NCBI RefSeq assembly: GCF_004331695.1
Contig: NZ_SJSL01000001.1
Span: 186,001-250,000 of the forward strand
Length of the DNA stretch: 64,000 nucleotides
Source of the DNA: Pedobacter psychroterrae
Lineage (GTDB): Bacteria; Bacteroidota; Bacteroidia; Sphingobacteriales; Sphingobacteriaceae
Direction of reading: 5' to 3'
The notes under the pieces are model-generated. The model did not search any database and was not told the DNA's origin. It worked only from the letters and a program-made list of their open reading frames with translations. Made by a program: the position numbers and the translations under genes. The first letter of the stretch is position 1; each line of letters starts with the position of its first letter. Shown here piece after piece: positions 49,001 through 61,025 of the stretch.

Positions 49001-49179
49001 ATCTAATAAAAATCAAGCCAGTTTTGTTTTAGGCCACGACCATAAAGGTTGAACATAGACGGACCGATCCGCATCGGCTCTGTACCCCAACTTGTAGGAA
49101 ATGGCCTTATTCTGTAATATTATCTGGTTTAATCGCCGATTTTTTGGAAATGATTTTTCTTTGTTGCATTTTTGCAATG

Positions 49180-49289
49180 CTTATAGAGAAAGACGGAGGG
49201 ATTAGACCCTGCGAAGTCTTAGCAACCTGTGCTTACAAGGTGCTACATTCTACAGGAAACCAACACAGTACTGGTTTCCGAAAGATAAG
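49180..49289 (+). ncRNA. SAM-I (S-box) riboswitch upstream of metH
   Basis: The P1 stem pairs CTTAT (49180-49184) with ATAAG (49285-49289). Inside, AGACGGAGGGATTAGACCCT then GCGAAGTCTTAGCAACC match the SAM-I core, followed by two further hairpins (the second from GGAAACCAAC to GGTTTCC) and GAAAG before P1 closes. A TTTCTTTG box at 49156-49163 suggests a start of transcription just upstream. SAM binding would lower metH and perhaps metF expression. Confidence 0.9.
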
Positions 49290-49446
49290 TTGGTTATTGG
49301 CTTTAGCCCATAACGTGTAACTAGACCTCGGCCGATCTTCCCTTATCTTCCCCTTAAGCTTTGCATGCGATAGGTTCGGCACTTGTTTTGGCTTCAGGCC
49401 TCTATCAAAAATAGCTTATAGCATGCTCATATGATTTTTTTAACAA
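49290..49446 (+). promoter_or_regulatory. Riboswitch expression platform and metH leader
   Basis: A hairpin (49293-49314, GTTATtGGC with GCCcATAAC) follows the aptamer. CTTATC at 49342-49347 can pair with GATAAG at 49284-49289, which is the 3' strand of P1, so it can form an alternative to the SAM-bound fold. GCATGC occurs at both about 49364 and 49421 and a seven-T tract lies just before the start codon. I cannot tell whether control is by termination or at translation. Confidence 0.45.
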
Positions 49447-54720: not shown

Positions 54721-56037
54721 TTAATAACCATTCAAATATTCTTTAAACGACTCAAAGCTTGTATCCATGGCAGTCGCTTTCTTCTCTTTGCTAAACAAGC
54801 TGTTGACCTGTGCAGGGATCTCTATTTTAGCTTTGATTTCCTCAGGGAAAATGTCAGGAAACTTACAAGCATGGGCAGTAGATAAAAAGACTTTTGCTTC
54901 TTTGCTTTCTACCTTTGCATCTGTGCTGTATGTCTGCAAGGCCAGCCAGGCAATAGCGGTGTGCGGACAAGCCACATAGCTGAACTTTTCATAGATGTCT
55001 TTTATCGCCTGCAGGGTATCTTCATCAGTAAAACTATAGCTTTTTACAATGTCTTTTATAGCTTCCTGGTCATTACCGAAGAGATCCATGATGCGCACCC
55101 AATTGCTCGGTGCGCCTACATCCATTGCGTTCGCATATGTTTGTATGGAGGATTTGGTTTCATAGACACCCGTTTCTAAAAAGCGGGGAACGGTATCATT
55201 GATATTGGTAGCAGCGATGAACTGCTTTACCGGAAGCCCCATTTTATAAGCCAGCAAGCCCGCAGCGATATTGCCAAAATTGCCACTTGGAACAGAAAAT
55301 ACCACGTTTTCTTTTCCTTGTCTTTTTAATTGCGCAAACGCATTGAAATAGTAAAATGTCTGCGGGATCAGGCGGGAAATATTGATGGAATTAGCTGAAG
55401 TAAGTCTGAGCTTTTTGTTTAGTTCTTCATCAGCGAAAGCTTGCTTAACCAAGCTTTGGCAATCATCAAAAGTACCATCTACTTCAATGGCATGAATGTT
55501 CTGCCCATTGGTACATAACTGCAATTCCTGTATCTCGCTCACCTTTCCTTTAGGGTATAGAATAGTAACACGGGTATTTGGGACACCCAAAAAGCCAAGC
55601 GCTACTGCGCCTCCGGTATCTCCTGAAGTGGCAACCAATACATCCAGCATCTTTTCGTTGTCTTTAAGGAAATAGGCCATGATGCGGCTCATAAACCTGG
55701 CACCAAAATCTTTAAAGGCAAGTGATGGGCCGTGAAAGAGTTCGAGCACATAGGTGTCCCCGCCTTCCTGCAAAGGCACTAAAGGTGCCTCAAAGTTGAT
55801 GGCATCATCGATGATGTGCTGGAGGTCTTCCAATGGGATGGCATCTCTGAGCAATAGAGAGGCTACTTTATAAGCAATCTGGGAAAGTGTAAACTTGTCA
55901 AGATTGTTTATAAATTCCTGGTCAAGATCGGGTATGTGAACAGGCATGTACAAGCCTTTATCCAGCGGCATGCTGTTGAAGACCGCAGTTGCGAAGTCTA
56001 CTTTTAAATCGTGGTTCTGGGTGCTGTATAGTTTCAT
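54721..56037 (-). CDS. thrC: Threonine synthase
   Basis: A 438-aa PLP enzyme. The Lys Schiff-base site is in HGPSLAFKDFGARFMSR; the phosphate-binding loop is FSVPSGNFGNIAAGL. The opening YSTQNHDLKVDFATAVFNSM PLDKGLYMP is typical of the class of threonine synthases in E. coli and Bacteroidota. ATSGDTGGAVALGFLGV is another core motif. It makes threonine from O-phosphohomoserine. Last gene of the thr operon; a 136-bp repeat-bearing gap separates it from thrB. Confidence 0.95.
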   Translation of the reverse strand: MKLYSTQNHDLKVDFATAVFNSMPLDKGLYMPVHIPDLDQEFINNLDKFTLSQIAYKVASLLLRDAIPLEDLQHIIDDAINFEAPLVPLQEGGDTYVLELFHGPSLAFKDFGARFMSRIMAYFLKDNEKMLDVLVATSGDTGGAVALGFLGVPNTRVTILYPKGKVSEIQELQLCTNGQNIHAIEVDGTFDDCQSLVKQAFADEELNKKLRLTSANSINISRLIPQTFYYFNAFAQLKRQGKENVVFSVPSGNFGNIAAGLLAYKMGLPVKQFIAATNINDTVPRFLETGVYETKSSIQTYANAMDVGAPSNWVRIMDLFGNDQEAIKDIVKSYSFTDEDTLQAIKDIYEKFSYVACPHTAIAWLALQTYSTDAKVESKEAKVFLSTAHACKFPDIFPEEIKAKIEIPAQVNSLFSKEKKATAMDTSFESFKEYLNGY

Positions 56038-56173: not shown

Positions 56174-57109
56174 TTAATCCAATATTATCGGTCCTTTTTT
56201 ATTTACCTCTGACACAAAAGCAAGGCTGTTTATGGCAATGCCTTTAAGGTGCTGCTGCAGTTTTTGTGTGATCTTTGTGGCGGTATCAGCATCCCTGGTA
56301 AGGGAGAATACCGATGGCCCTGAGCCTGAAATACCAAAGCCTATGGCACCATTTTCCATCGCTATGGACTTCATCACTGAAAAATCCGGGATCAGAATAG
56401 ACCTGGTAGGTTCGACCAGGATATCCGTCATACTCCGTCCTATCAAGTCATAATCTTTCATAAAGAGACCACTTACCAGTCCGGCCACATTGCCCCATTG
56501 GGTCACTGCATCTTTCAAAAACACTTTGGATCTGATCATCTGGCGGGCATCTTTAGTCGGTACATCTACTTCTGGATATACAATAGCGGCATGCAGGTCT
56601 TCCGGAAAAGGAAGACTAATGATGTCAAGCGGCTCATAACTTCTGATGAGCACAAAACCGCCCATCAGTGCCGGCGCCACATTGTCGGCATGGCCATATC
56701 CGCAAGCAAGCTCCTCCCCCTTCATAGCAAAGGGAACGAGCGCTCTATTGGTCAGCAGGTTATCAAAAAGGGTATTAATGGCAAATAAACCGGCAACGGT
56801 ACTAGCGGAACTAGAGCCAAGACCACTACCAATAGGCATCTTTTTATGAAGCTCGATATCAATACCCGTATCAGGCTTACCTATGTGATTTAAATAATGC
56901 TGCACACTGGCACTCACTGTATTTTTGGCTGGGTTTAAGGGTAATTTACCATCATCACCGGTAATCTTTGAAATGGTGATCCCTTTGGTATCTGTGAACC
57001 GCATGATGACTTCATCACCGGGCTGGTTGACGGCAAAACCGAGGACATCGTAACCGCAAACCACATTGGCAACGGTAGCTGGAGCGAAAACTTTAACTGA
57101 TCTGTTCAT
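56174..57109 (-). CDS. thrB: Homoserine kinase
   Basis: A 311-aa GHMP kinase. N-terminal VFAPATVANVVCGYDVLGFA, the ATP loop KKMPIGSGLGSSSASTVAGL and the C-terminal GAIGFGISGSGPSVFSL are the three GHMP motifs. It phosphorylates homoserine. It is 7 bp after thrA and before thrC. Confidence 0.96.
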   Translation of the reverse strand: MNRSVKVFAPATVANVVCGYDVLGFAVNQPGDEVIMRFTDTKGITISKITGDDGKLPLNPAKNTVSASVQHYLNHIGKPDTGIDIELHKKMPIGSGLGSSSASTVAGLFAINTLFDNLLTNRALVPFAMKGEELACGYGHADNVAPALMGGFVLIRSYEPLDIISLPFPEDLHAAIVYPEVDVPTKDARQMIRSKVFLKDAVTQWGNVAGLVSGLFMKDYDLIGRSMTDILVEPTRSILIPDFSVMKSIAMENGAIGFGISGSGPSVFSLTRDADTATKITQKLQQHLKGIAINSLAFVSEVNKKGPIILD

Positions 57110-57116
57110 TGGGGAC

Positions 57117-59564
57117 TTATCGTTTACCTACGTTTATAATATCTGCAAATACGCCTGCGGCGGTTACTTCAGCTCCTGCACCCGGGCCTTTTACTACCAA
57201 TGGCCGGTCTTTATAGCGGTTGGTGGTAAAGGAAATGATGTTGTCACTTCCAGACAGGGTAAAGAAAGGGTGGTTTTCATCTACCATCTGAAGATTGATA
57301 GACACCTTGCCATCTTCCAGTTTGCCGATATACCTGAGTACTTTATTGTTGTTGGTAGCTTCACTTTTAAGATTTTCAAAGTAAGCCGTATTGTTTTCCA
57401 GTTCCTGGTAGAAGTCTGCCACACTTTCCGCAGCCATGCAGGATGCAGGTAGCATATTTTGAAGGTCAATGTCTTTTTCTTCCAATGCATATCCGGCATC
57501 ACGGGCAAGGATGAGCATTTTGCGCATAAAATCCTTACCGTTGAGGTCATCACGCGGATCAGGCTCTGTATACCCCTTGTCCTGTGCTTCTTTTACCACT
57601 TCGTGAAAAAGCACCCCATTTTTATAATTGTTAAAAATGTAAGAAATAGTCCCTGATAATATGGCTTCTATTCTGCCCACCTGATCACCACTTAACATTA
57701 AGTCCCTTAGGGTACGGATGATCGGTAGTCCGGCACCAACATTGGTTTCATAAAAGAAGTCCACACCATAAGTCCGGGCTGCCTGCTTAAATGCAGCGTA
57801 CTGCTCATAGTCGGCCGAGTTGCCCAGCTTATTACAAGTCACCACAGAAATACTTGACTGCAGGATATCGAGGTAATACTCAATGGGATTGTGACTGGCG
57901 GTATTGTCTACAAACACACAGTTGGGCAGGTTCATAGACTTCATGCGCTTAATGAAATCCGGCAGACTGGCCTTCGTTTCCTGAGCATCCAGTTCTTCTT
58001 CCCAGGTAGCAAGGTCTATTCCATCGGGATTTAAAAGCATTGTACGGGTATTGCTGATACCCATTACCTTTACCTGAAGATCATTGTTTGCGGCCAGAAA
58101 AGGCATCTGCTCCTGTAGTTGTCTGAACAGTGTTTTGCCGATATTGCCTGTACCCAGGCAAAAGATATGGAGGGTCTTTTTAAGATCAGCGTAAAAGGCA
58201 TCATGCACTGCATTGACCGCCTTTGAAAGGTCAGTTTTGGAGATGATGACTGAAATATTGTACTCTGACGAGCCTTGGGCAATGGCCCTGACGTTTACCC
58301 CATTTCTGCCGAGCGCACTGAAAAGCTTGCCCGACATACCCGGCGTGCGCTTCATATTCTCCCCTACAATGGCAAGTACGGAAAGCCCGTTCTCGACTTC
58401 AGGGTATTCCAGCTTCCTTGCCTGCAACTCCAGTTCAAACTCTTTGTTGATCAGCGAAAGCGCTTTAAGAGAGTCAGCAGGTTTTACCGCAAAGGTGATG
58501 CTGTGTTCAGACGAAGACTGGGTAATCAGCACCACATTTACCTGCTCTCTGGAGAGCATAGAGAACAAACGGCCGCTAAAGCCGGCTTTGCCCACCATTC
58601 CGCTACCGGAAAGGTTAAGCACGCTGATCTCATCGATGGAAGAGATCCCTTTGATAGGTAAAGGTGAGGGACTTATGCCATGCTTTATATAGGTGCCGGC
58701 AAAGTCAGTATTGAAAGTATTTTTAATGACGATCGGGATGCGCTTTAAAAAAGCAGGGATCATGGTAGGCGGATAGATCACTTTCGCGCCAAAATAAGAA
58801 AGCTCCATCGCTTCAGTATAACTGAGTTCCGGCAGGGAGAATGCTTTTTTTACCATGCGGGGGTCGGCAGTAAGCATACCGTCTACATCGGTCCAGATCT
58901 CTATCTGATCGGCATTTAGCGCTGCACCCCAGATGGCTGCAGTATAGTCGCTGCCACCACGGCCAAGTGTAGTAACCCTGCCCTCATCATTGCTGGAAAT
59001 AAATCCGGTAACAAATAGCAACTTATCCTGATGGTCTTTGTAGAAATCCCTGATCAGCATTTCTGTGATCTGGGTATTTACCTTTGCCTGTCCGAAGTTG
59101 CTGTCTGTTTTGATCAGTTCAGATCCGTCTACATACAGGGCTTCTGGAAATTGCTGTTTGGCAATGTGGCTCACCATGATGGTAGCGCAGCGTTCTCCAT
59201 AGCTCAATATGAGGTCTTTGGTTTGCGGACTCAGTTCCCGAAGGTTATATACTGATTGCAAGATGTCTTCCAGTTCATTGAAACAGATCTTTAATTTGGT
59301 AAGCACCGGATTTTGTGCGCTTGCTGGAAGGAGCGTTCTGATGACTTTAAAGTGCTTCTCCTCTACCAGTTTTAACCTTTCGGTATAATCCTGCAGATCT
59401 TTGGCGCTTTCTGCCATTTCCAGTAAGGTATTGGTAACCCCGCCCATTGCTGACAACACTACTACAGGATTCTCCTGGCCCTGCAATGGTTTGAGGATTT
59501 CTATCAGGGCGCTGATGCTGTCAACAGAACCGACTGAGGTGCCTCCAAATTTTAAGATATTCAT
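57117..59564 (-). CDS. thrA: Bifunctional aspartate kinase / homoserine dehydrogenase I
   Basis: An 815-aa fusion. Aspartokinase part: LKFGGTSVGSVDSISALIEI at the start, GFISSNDEGRVTTLGRGGSD YTAAIWGA, then two ACT domains (ISVLNLSGSGMVGKAGFSG; LAIVGENMKRTPGMSGKLFS) for threonine feedback. Homoserine dehydrogenase part from about residue 465: IFCLGTGNIGKTLFRQLQEQ, VTCNKLGNSADYEQYAAFKQ, FFYETNVGAGLPIIRTLRDL and GYTEPDPRDDLNGKDFMRK. It does the first and third steps from aspartate toward threonine. First structural gene after the leader. Confidence 0.97.
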   Translation of the reverse strand: MNILKFGGTSVGSVDSISALIEILKPLQGQENPVVVLSAMGGVTNTLLEMAESAKDLQDYTERLKLVEEKHFKVIRTLLPASAQNPVLTKLKICFNELEDILQSVYNLRELSPQTKDLILSYGERCATIMVSHIAKQQFPEALYVDGSELIKTDSNFGQAKVNTQITEMLIRDFYKDHQDKLLFVTGFISSNDEGRVTTLGRGGSDYTAAIWGAALNADQIEIWTDVDGMLTADPRMVKKAFSLPELSYTEAMELSYFGAKVIYPPTMIPAFLKRIPIVIKNTFNTDFAGTYIKHGISPSPLPIKGISSIDEISVLNLSGSGMVGKAGFSGRLFSMLSREQVNVVLITQSSSEHSITFAVKPADSLKALSLINKEFELELQARKLEYPEVENGLSVLAIVGENMKRTPGMSGKLFSALGRNGVNVRAIAQGSSEYNISVIISKTDLSKAVNAVHDAFYADLKKTLHIFCLGTGNIGKTLFRQLQEQMPFLAANNDLQVKVMGISNTRTMLLNPDGIDLATWEEELDAQETKASLPDFIKRMKSMNLPNCVFVDNTASHNPIEYYLDILQSSISVVTCNKLGNSADYEQYAAFKQAARTYGVDFFYETNVGAGLPIIRTLRDLMLSGDQVGRIEAILSGTISYIFNNYKNGVLFHEVVKEAQDKGYTEPDPRDDLNGKDFMRKMLILARDAGYALEEKDIDLQNMLPASCMAAESVADFYQELENNTAYFENLKSEATNNNKVLRYIGKLEDGKVSINLQMVDENHPFFTLSGSDNIISFTTNRYKDRPLVVKGPGAGAEVTAAGVFADIINVGKR

Positions 59565-59582: not shown

Positions 59583-59627
59583 TTTTAAAAAAAAAGCGCC
59601 TTCCCCAATTAGAGGAAGGCGCTTTTT
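59583..59627 (-). terminator. Attenuator terminator of the thr operon
   Basis: On the minus strand AGCGCCTTCC and GGAAGGCGCT pair perfectly around an 9-nt loop, and nine T follow. It sits between the leader peptide and thrA, 19 bp before the thrA start. Part of its 5' arm (CCTTCCTC) can instead pair with GAGGAAGG in the leader peptide coding region (59671-59664), so the two folds exclude each other. Confidence 0.9.
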
Positions 59628-59655
59628 GTGGTCTTTATGTGCTTCATTTACTCCA

Positions 59656-59727
59656 CTAGCTTACCTTCCTCCGGGCATTGCCGGTGGTTGTGGTGGTGGT
59701 AATGGTAATATTTGAGTTGTTATACAT
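59656..59727 (-). CDS. thrL: thr operon leader peptide (23 aa)
   Basis: An ATG at 59727 opens 23 codons ending in TAG: MYNNSNITITTTTTTGNARR followed by KVS. Nine consecutive residues are Thr or Ile (seven Thr, two Ile), and thrL of E. coli has the same kind of run (also followed by TGN). Ribosome stalling at these codons would free the antiterminator and let thrA-thrB-thrC be made when Thr or Ile tRNA charging is low. Its 3' codons (CGG AGG AAG G) are the antiterminator strand. It is far too short to be found by normal gene calling. Confidence 0.9.
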   Translation of the reverse strand: MYNNSNITITTTTTTGNARRKVS

Positions 59728-59785
59728 TGTATCTTTTACACTAATTGTGCGATGGCGTAAAGTAAGGGTATATTTTTTTAATTAG

Positions 59786-59814
59786 CAAATTTATTTTGCA
59801 GCAGTGACTGTCAA
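59786..59814 (-). promoter_or_regulatory. Promoter of the thr operon
   Basis: On the minus strand TTG (59814-59812), 18 bp, TAAATTTG (59793-59786): both boxes match the Bacteroidota consensus. Transcription would start about 50 nt before the leader ATG. Confidence 0.7.
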
Positions 59815-59860: not shown

Positions 59861-60017
59861 TATAAGACAGTTTGCTATTTGTTCGCTATTGACAGGGCCT
59901 TTACAGGGGGTATGTAAACATCACATTAAGGGTTGACGGCTAAGCGGTCGAAGCAACCCCCTGGATACCCTCTGCCACCCCCCTGTCAATAGCGAACGCA
60001 TAGCGAACTGTGTCATA
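59861..60017. repeat. Nested palindromic element (MITE-like or structured RNA)
   Basis: Positions 59861-59897 and 59981-60017 are 37-bp inverted repeats with 32 identities; the inner 17 bp (ending GACAGGG) are perfect. Each arm contains a tandem GTTYGCTAT-type motif. Inside, CAGGGGGTAT and ATACCCTCTG, and GGGTTG with CAACCC, make further nested stems. There is no open frame. It lies between the thr promoter and rsgA. Miniature transposon, palindromic repeat and RNA element are all possible. Confidence 0.7.
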
Positions 60018-60104: not shown

Positions 60105-61025
60105 ATGCGCGGACTAATAATAAAATCAACAGGAAGCTGGTACCAGGTTCATGCAGCCGACGGAGTAAATTATGACTGCAGGATCAAGGGTAAATTTAGG
60201 ATACAGGGGATACAGACCACTAATCCCATCGCGGTTGGTGATGAGGTTGAGTTTGAGCTGGAGCCCAATTCTGACAAGGGCATCATAGATAAACTTTACG
60301 AACGTAAGAATTATATCATCAGGAAGTCGATCAATTTATCTAAGCAGGCCCAGATCATCGCAGCCAATATGGATCAGGCATTTTTGGTAGTAACCCTTGC
60401 TTCACCGCGTACCTCCCTTGGATTTATAGACAGGTTTTTGGCTACAGCGGAAGCTTATTGTATTCCTGCCGTGCTGATCTTCAATAAGCTCGACCTTTTT
60501 CATGAAGAGGGACTGGCTGTACTGGCTGATTATGCAGCTATCTATGAAAACATAGGCTATCCCTGCTATGCCGTTTCAGCATTGAAAGGAACAAGTCTCC
60601 CACTGGTAAAAGAGCTGCTAAAAGATAAAACTACTTTGTTTTCGGGGCATTCGGGTGTAGGCAAATCAAGCCTGATCAATGCATTGCTGCCTTGGATGGA
60701 AATTAAAACAGGTGATGTTTCTGAGGCCACTGATAAAGGGCAGCATACCACCACTTTTGCAGAGATGCATACCCTGCCTTTTGGAGGATACCTGATCGAT
60801 ACGCCTGGTATCAGGGAACTGGGGATATTTGATATCCGTCCGGAAGAACTGGGCCATTACTTTAGAGAAATCCGGGATTTGATGAATGAATGCAGGTTTA
60901 ACAATTGCAGACATGTGAATGAACCTGGATGTGCGGTGATGAAGGCGGTAGAAAATGATGATATAGCATTGAGCAGGTATGAAAGCTATCTGAGTATTTA
61001 CCACGGAAATGAGACGAGGGCTTAA
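60105..61025 (+). CDS. rsgA: Ribosome small subunit-dependent GTPase A
   Basis: A 306-aa circularly permuted GTPase. OB-fold N-terminus (GLIIKSTGSWYQVHAADGVN), then G4 NKLDLF, G1 [21 protein letters not shown]3 DTPGIRELG, and a C-terminal zinc knuckle CRFNNCRHVNEPGCAV. It checks and matures the 30S subunit. It lies upstream of dtd with a 4-bp gap. Confidence 0.96.
   Translation: MRGLIIKSTGSWYQVHAADGVNYDCRIKGKFRIQGIQTTNPIAVGDEVEFELEPNSDKGIIDKLYERKNYIIRKSINLSKQAQIIAANMDQAFLVVTLASPRTSLGFIDRFLATAEAYCIPAVLIFNKLDLFHEEGLAVLADYAAIYENIGYPCYAVSALKGTSLPLVKELLKDKTTLFSGHSGVGKSSLINALLPWMEIKTGDVSEATDKGQHTTTFAEMHTLPFGGYLIDTPGIRELGIFDIRPEELGHYFREIRDLMNECRFNNCRHVNEPGCAVMKAVENDDIALSRYESYLSIYHGNETRA

Follow-up and report, generated by a model that had tools for sequence, protein, structure and literature searches.

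A probable leader-peptide attenuator of thrABC in Pedobacter psychroterrae and a different, terminator-less Thr leader in other Bacteroidota

The thrABC locus and the region upstream of thrA

The window, by which we mean the whole 64,000-nucleotide stretch of Pedobacter psychroterrae DNA that was analysed, holds thrA, thrB and thrC, all three scoring over an NCBIfam cut-off in profile matches. In a tree of ThrA sequences (see below) the closest to the window's is that of Pedobacter sp. B4-66, with 90% identity. Upstream of thrA there is a gap of 540 bases, and the next listed gene (60105-61025, forward strand) is divergent. The genes and the parts assigned in the gap are:

57117-59564, reverse strand: thrA, fused aspartate kinase-homoserine dehydrogenase I (NF006959, 1038.6 bits, cut-off 726)
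56174-57109, reverse strand: thrB, homoserine kinase (NF002288, 379.4 bits; TIGR00191, 216.6 bits)
54721-56037, reverse strand: thrC, threonine synthase (TIGR00260, 299.1 bits)
59812-59814, reverse strand: promoter-like -33 TTG (sequence reading)
59786-59793, reverse strand: promoter-like -7 box TAAATTTG, following the TTG after an 18-nt spacer
59656-59727, reverse strand: thr leader ORF of 23 codons plus TAG (ATG 59727, TAG 59656), peptide MYNNSNITITTTTTTGNARRKVS; read from the sequence, with the same kind of ORF in the family
59683-59709, reverse strand: nine regulatory codons, 7 Thr and 2 Ile (sequence)
59663-59672, reverse strand: antiterminator 5' strand GGAGGAAGGT, within the final leader codons (partial-transcript fold and covariation)
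59653-59660, reverse strand: predicted additional segments of the antiterminator 5' strand (GCT, GTGG), which overlap the stop codon (partial-transcript fold)
59611-59631, reverse strand: antiterminator 3' side, with CCAC at 59631-59628, AGC at 59623-59621 and GCCTTCCTCT at 59620-59611 (partial-transcript fold)
59612-59627, reverse strand: terminator 5' arm (hairpin scan, fold)
59591-59606, reverse strand: terminator 3' arm (hairpin scan, fold)
59587-59595, reverse strand: run of nine T, overlapping the outer end of the terminator 3' arm (sequence)

A previous sequence-only reading had placed a threonine attenuator here, and on re-reading the sequence its leader, nine Thr/Ile codons, terminator and pairing strands were indeed recovered at that place. 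Codons 7-15 of the leader read ATT ACC ATT ACC ACC ACC ACA ACC ACC. The terminator, earlier called perfect, has the nine T ascribed to it, but its stem of 16 pairs around the loop at 59611-59607 includes one U-G, and the distance from the T run to the ATG of thrA (59564) is 22 nt rather than 19 bp. Of the alternative pairing, proposed to span 8 bp, the two strands are complementary as described (GAGGAAGG, 59671-59664, with CCTTCCTC, 59619-59612), but the predicted antiterminator is longer, comprising 10 bp followed by GCU/AGC and GUGG/CCAC (-22.1 kcal/mol). The 196-nt stretch folds with a z of -4.08, and none of 200 shuffles was equally stable.

The suggested promoter, a TTG and a box separated by 18 nt, is present in the window, where TAAATTTG was matched to TAnnTTTG, which we take to be the Bacteroidota promoter consensus. 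The strict box is however not a family-wide feature, being found in 14 of 86 family loci as compared to 108 of 860 shuffles; together with a TTG at the right spacing it occurs in 8 of the 86 against 6 of 860 shuffles, enriched yet rare.

The surroundings of the locus hold further elements. A 157-bp inverted repeat (59861-60017) separates the leader promoter from the divergent gene. Its 53-nt arms are 79% complementary; a 17-nt piece of its arm has five more matches in the genome (at most 2 mismatches), two of them paired about 100 bp apart, and the repeat looks like a small mobile palindrome. A SAM riboswitch (RF00162, 62.1 bits) is located at 49178-49291, just upstream of a gene that by eye is metH-like, and two aspartate-family branches within 11 kb thus seem to use different RNA sensors. 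A search of the same genome for His runs gave 10 matches, but just a single short His-rich ORF among these loci, with no terminator seen after it.

Conservation, covariation and predicted folding of the leader

Matches resembling thrA were found in 150 of the 151 genomes of the GTDB family, and 90 upstream regions were sampled, 30 from the best matches and 60 hand-picked across genera, with the window's own included. Congruent with the conservation of Thr/Ile codons that the sequence-only reading had put forward as a check, a single rule applied unchanged throughout (ORFs 8-60 codons long, with six or more Thr or Ile in nine) recovered a leader in 87 of the 90 loci; the shuffled controls yielded one in 39 of 1800 cases and the antisense strands in 2 of 90. 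A crude scan for a hairpin plus T run between leader and thrA (score of at least 21.5) yielded a strong terminator in 86 of these 87, against 1 of 870 shuffles; the loci share kinship, and the counts are hence not independent events. Four family loci (L091-L094) are without the full design, and their ThrA is divergent, sharing 44-46% identity with that of the window across 267 residues. L091-L093 lack a leader under the rule; L094, the remaining leader-bearing locus (terminator score 12.5), carries the terminator-less leader kind described below. Near the leader end GGAGG is present in 49 loci and in all three frames (24, 14 and 11), which suggests that the RNA rather than the peptide is under selection, leaving the peptide tail free.

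The terminator 5' arms of the 86 loci group into 61 CCTTCC, 15 TCCCGA, 5 GCTTC, 2 CTTTCC and 3 other arms. In the two large classes, leader ends bind arms of their own class more strongly than arms of other classes, at -12.58 versus -8.27 kcal/mol for CCTTCC and -12.66 versus -8.30 kcal/mol for TCCCGA. The preference is reversed in the GCTTC class (own -6.7, cross -8.9) and absent from the three other loci (-11.17 and -11.34), and the CTTTCC class (-10.55 and -10.04) was counted with the small classes that lack it. Compensatory changes, the second check that had been called for, are thus evident between the two large arm classes but not in the small ones. Over all 86 loci the pairing energy amounts to -12.15 within a locus, -10.54 across loci and -7.75 for shuffles, with self pairing stronger than the mean cross pairing in 68. 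The longest Watson-Crick run has a mean of 5.87 in own pairs, 5.18 with arms permuted among genomes and 4.14 with shuffled leader ends; none of 1000 permutations attained the observed mean, and runs of at least 7 occur in 34 of 86 loci as compared to 23 of 1720 shuffles. A test for pairings of at least 6 bp did not discriminate (84 of 86 loci, but 619 of 860 shuffled controls), because purine-rich ends commonly pair with pyrimidine arms. Where the pairing forms, the antiterminator strand starts upstream of the stop codon in 82 of 84 loci. The consensus fold of the whole family alignment displayed the terminator only, with no antiterminator.

The window's RNA was folded with the ribosome as a mask, its edge assumed 15 nt from the A-site codon. 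With a ribosome placed at the stop, the RNA left unmasked is predicted to form the terminator alone (-27.0 kcal/mol); with the A site at any of codons 7-14 the partial transcript adopts the antiterminator (-22.1 to -24.5), which is weaker on stalling at codon 15 (-16.9). These partial-transcript folds agree with the earlier proposal that the antiterminator is hidden by a ribosome that has reached the stop, which permits termination. The complete RNA however prefers the terminator even with a stalled ribosome (-31.5 to -40.7). Since the full-length RNA invariably adopts this fold, only a kinetic switch could operate, and attenuation is generally regarded as a kinetic decision. In the absence of any ribosome the folds give the antiterminator for the partial transcript (-24.5) and the terminator for the complete RNA, so that an untranslated leader could go either way.

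The sequence thus displays the functional hallmarks of a thr attenuator: a Thr/Ile ORF, a terminator before the first structural gene, and an exclusive antiterminator that can be masked at the stop. Judged on these parts, the element is very probably a ribosome-mediated transcription attenuator of thrABC. We infer the following order of events, along with its dependence on Thr and Ile and a coupling of polymerase and ribosome in Bacteroidota. RNA polymerase would synthesise the leader RNA with a ribosome trailing through the nine Thr/Ile codons. When charged tRNA-Thr and tRNA-Ile are abundant, the ribosome would arrive at the stop codon and mask the purine-rich strand in the final codons, allowing the terminator to fold ahead of thrA. 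When the charged tRNAs are scarce, the ribosome would stall upstream, and the free purine strand would pair with the terminator 5' arm before the 3' arm exists, so that transcription continues. The Ile codons beside those for Thr make sense in this scheme, because isoleucine is synthesised from threonine.

Two simpler origins of these parts deserve attention. Neither ACC/ATT runs nor terminators are rare, and the leader ORF might be a chance run next to a hairpin that terminates a neighbouring gene; indeed, strong hairpins with a T run but with no Thr leader by the rule lie upstream of thrA in L234, L244, L245 and L265. Yet the neighbour at 60105-61025 is divergent, so that its transcript ends elsewhere, and leader and terminator are kept throughout nearly the whole family sample. 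On these grounds we rejected both chance and a neighbouring terminator, and consider this origin extremely improbable. A terminator by itself could also serve any sensor, be it a T-box tRNA, a riboswitch or a protein, with the leader a by-product. However, the leader region has no Rfam match at gathering score, and the list at E<=10 includes neither a T-box nor a riboswitch, both of which were consequently rejected; its best entry is Thr_leader, and others, such as a PyrR site, are far under their thresholds. The use of all frames by GGAGG and the start of the antiterminator before the stop moreover fit masking by a translating ribosome. Control by another sensor is therefore improbable, although somewhat less so than chance, and we retain attenuation by the translating ribosome.

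Relation to E. coli thrL and the ThrA tree

The view that the enterobacterial thrL logic recurs here in a distant phylum is borne out by the layout, which equals that of E. coli thrL (Rfam RF00506 Thr_leader; locus L292): in both, a Thr/Ile leader peptide precedes thrABC, and a GC-rich hairpin with its T run lies immediately ahead of thrA. In E. coli thrL the antiterminator strand lies at the leader end, as in the Pedobacter switch. There is however scant sequence likeness beyond the ACC/ATT run, and the Pedobacter switch, unlike thrL, opposes a purine-rich GGAGGAAGG to CCTTCCTC, in another phylum and with a distant ThrA. The Thr_leader model scores 44.6 bits in the window (E 4.5e-7 in 600 bases), below its gathering score of 55. 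None of 20 relatives reaches 55 bits (best 45.4); 17 have a sense-strand match at E<=1, and a single antisense match (L062) places such weak matches near chance. The switch would accordingly work like thrL but is no Thr_leader member by Rfam's own criterion. The sequence-only reading was also reminded of E. coli ThrL by a TGN after the Thr run. As 'GN' follows the Thr/Ile run in only 3 of 86 family leaders (Gly stands there in 60), we rejected this likeness as deep conservation.

A ThrA tree of 83 rows was built with a quick method and midpoint root, with three gammaproteobacterial rows (E. coli, Proteus and Aeromonas); L262 and L274 were excluded as too short, and L293 (type I) and L295 (type II) were labelled by eye. 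The three gammaproteobacterial ThrA are set off by the longest internal branch of the tree (1.84 + 0.85, spanning the midpoint root) from the other 80, which comprise 23 terminator-type rows, 28 with the second leader type and 29 with neither, the last including Cytophagaceae, Spirosomataceae, Saprospiraceae and Balneolaceae; by raw count, 8 label changes are needed. All 23 terminator-type rows fall within one clade of 24, nested in Bacteroidota with a support of 100; its one other row, L258, has neither leader kind. The clade takes in Pontibacter, Empedobacter, Epilithonimonas and a Rufibacter plasmid, and this mixed membership suggests that thrA and the switch may travel together inside Bacteroidota. 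The named rows were retrieved because they resemble an alignment headed by the ThrA of the window, and hence the tree cannot date the leader.

The plasmid, from Rufibacter tibetensis (L293:1650-2000), bears a thrA with, as judged by eye, its own Thr leader and terminator, neither thrB nor thrC being annotated in 6.4 kb, and is a possible vehicle for moving the switch. On a contig titled Bdellovibrionales (L260), a ThrA 48% identical to the window's groups near the Balneolaceae rows, reflecting either transfer or mis-binning; a short Thr-rich ORF, MHIFRTTPALTTSTPLG, is present upstream of this thrA.

Common ancestry with enterobacterial thrL, or transfer of the operon between phyla, would account for the shared gene and layout and for the Thr_leader matches in the window and in 17 of 20 relatives. 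The leader ORF could moreover be old, as a Thr-rich leader precedes fused thrA in other Bacteroidota too. The tree points the other way, with gammaproteobacterial ThrA far apart and the switch-bearing clade inside Bacteroidota, while nearby clades are without a leader by the rules and others have the second leader; whole-operon transfer from Gammaproteobacteria was rejected on this basis, albeit with three gammaproteobacterial rows only. The rarity of GN also speaks against homology, which we regard as unlikely, if less so than either of the alternatives above. Convergence with thrL is favoured over conservation, because GN is rare, the ThrA clade is nested in Bacteroidota, and other Bacteroidota have a different leader.

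A terminator-less Thr leader in other Bacteroidota

The unexpected part is this other leader, found in many relatives. A phylum set was composed of the 24 best loci and 60 picked rows with fused ThrA (L129, unoriented, is in no count; L095-L097 duplicate family loci). Outside the family, the same rule detected a Thr/Ile leader in 26 of 83 loci, against 22 of 1660 shuffles and 1 of 83 antisense strands. Only two of the 26 have a terminator score of at least 21.5: L133, where a plausible terminator accompanies the Thr leader, and L137, where the hairpin is inside the leader. In most of the remaining leaders a short GC-rich hairpin has the stop codon in its loop or just past it. A rule capturing this arrangement was composed after viewing the sequences, and its counts are therefore not blind: 56 of 164 loci match, as do 2 of 820 block-shuffled sequences and none of 164 antisense ones. 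The rule matches none of the 21 named terminator-type loci among the 164, for which 77 of 80 named loci were used (L216, L257 and L277 left out). L116 was removed as a chance match, and 55 were kept.

The stems of these hairpins change on both sides between groups (ACCCC/GGGGT, CAACCC/GGGTTG, TACGGG/CCCGTA, ATTACGGG/CCCGTGAT, TTACCCT/AGGGTAA and more). A YATAT box follows within 26 nt of the hairpin in 43 of the 55 loci versus 441 of 2750 shuffles, 38 of the 43 being at 6-12 nt past the stem. The arrangement was found in Flavobacterium, Chryseobacterium, Chitinophagaceae, Cyclobacteriaceae, Ohtaekwangia, Fulvivirga, Bacteroides and Phocaeicola, with L125, L132, L143, L147, L149, L108, L120, L113, L253, L264, L294 and L296 as examples. 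No Rfam family matched at E<=1 in 20 second-leader loci, save a tRNA elsewhere. A covariance model of the second leader had matches in 24 of 158 genomes at E<=0.1: 19 below 0.01, all just upstream of thrA and 16 of them the model-building sequences, and 8 weaker ones, two at thrA and six elsewhere. Used as a pattern, the 3' part of the element matched only at thrA in two of eight genomes and nowhere in the other six. The RNA 3' of the stop-codon hairpin is only slightly more stably folded than its shuffles (mean z -0.88 over the 55 loci, 12 under -2), and a second hairpin there is not established.

Two observations may be added. At the hairpin, the Bacteroides and Phocaeicola leaders (L294 and L296) carry Thr-Met-Thr codons, which would suit sensing of methionine besides threonine. 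L098, outside the family with a ThrA 55% identical to the window's, by eye has a CCTTCCTC-type terminator upstream of thrA; its ORF with Thr, Ile and Met codons misses the leader rule (5 of 9) and is perhaps a Met/Thr version of the terminator-type switch.

How the second leader is read out can be guessed at. The hairpin-to-box spacing resembles that of a hairpin-dependent polymerase pause, and, as no terminator is present, Rho or some other readout may be at work. We accordingly put forward, as an evenly balanced proposal, that in many Bacteroidota beyond the Pedobacter ThrA clade thrA is controlled by an undescribed terminator-less Thr leader, with the stop codon at the loop of a covarying hairpin and YATAT 6-12 nt on, which may be a pause or Rho attenuator, and that the Pedobacter lineage swapped this readout for a terminator switch like that of E. 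coli. If true, two readout modules have been exchanged behind one kind of Thr-sensing leader.

The Bacteroid-trp RNA motif concerns trp genes. This motif (RF01692), also listed among cis-regulatory Bacteroidetes motifs in the source as available to us, has no match in the stretches scanned. The 2004 abstract of Vitreschak reportedly names Bacteroidetes/Chlorobi, and an earlier thr prediction in the phylum is hence possible. In the texts available, amino-acid attenuators have been suggested to originate in Gammaproteobacteria (PMC3766115), and authors writing in 2010 knew of no demonstrated case beyond Proteobacteria and Actinobacteria other than the Firmicutes one that they themselves presented (PMC2965389). 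Within the phylum of the Pedobacter switch, the main text on the Flavobacterium psychrophilum transcriptome presents strong clues for leader-peptide attenuation before amino-acid operons, with no mention of thrA or threonine there (PMC9723704); the Flavobacterium thr leaders of our analysis are of the terminator-less kind, unlike the Pedobacter switch. A Bacteroides thetaiotaomicron map features short ORFs reminiscent of leader peptides in the text accessible (PMC7366714), and a thr attenuator of the Pedobacter type was not found in the accessible text of PMC4833913, PMC2864571 and PMC8305728. Neither a Sphingobacteriaceae thr attenuator nor the second element was described in the paper listings and text passages that the search covered.

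Aggregated, the sequence comparisons indicate that the Pedobacter element is real, conserved and covarying, and very probably a known kind of thr attenuator in a phylum where little of the sort is described. Leader-peptide attenuation needs ribosome and polymerase close together, and a covarying attenuator in 86 of 90 family loci, in a phylum whose ribosomes rely little on Shine-Dalgarno pairing, would constitute genetic evidence for such coupling in Bacteroidota. A thr attenuator of different sequence, nested in Bacteroidota, moreover argues for repeated origin, and the second leader is a candidate for a regulatory RNA in bacteria that are widespread in gut, soil and water.
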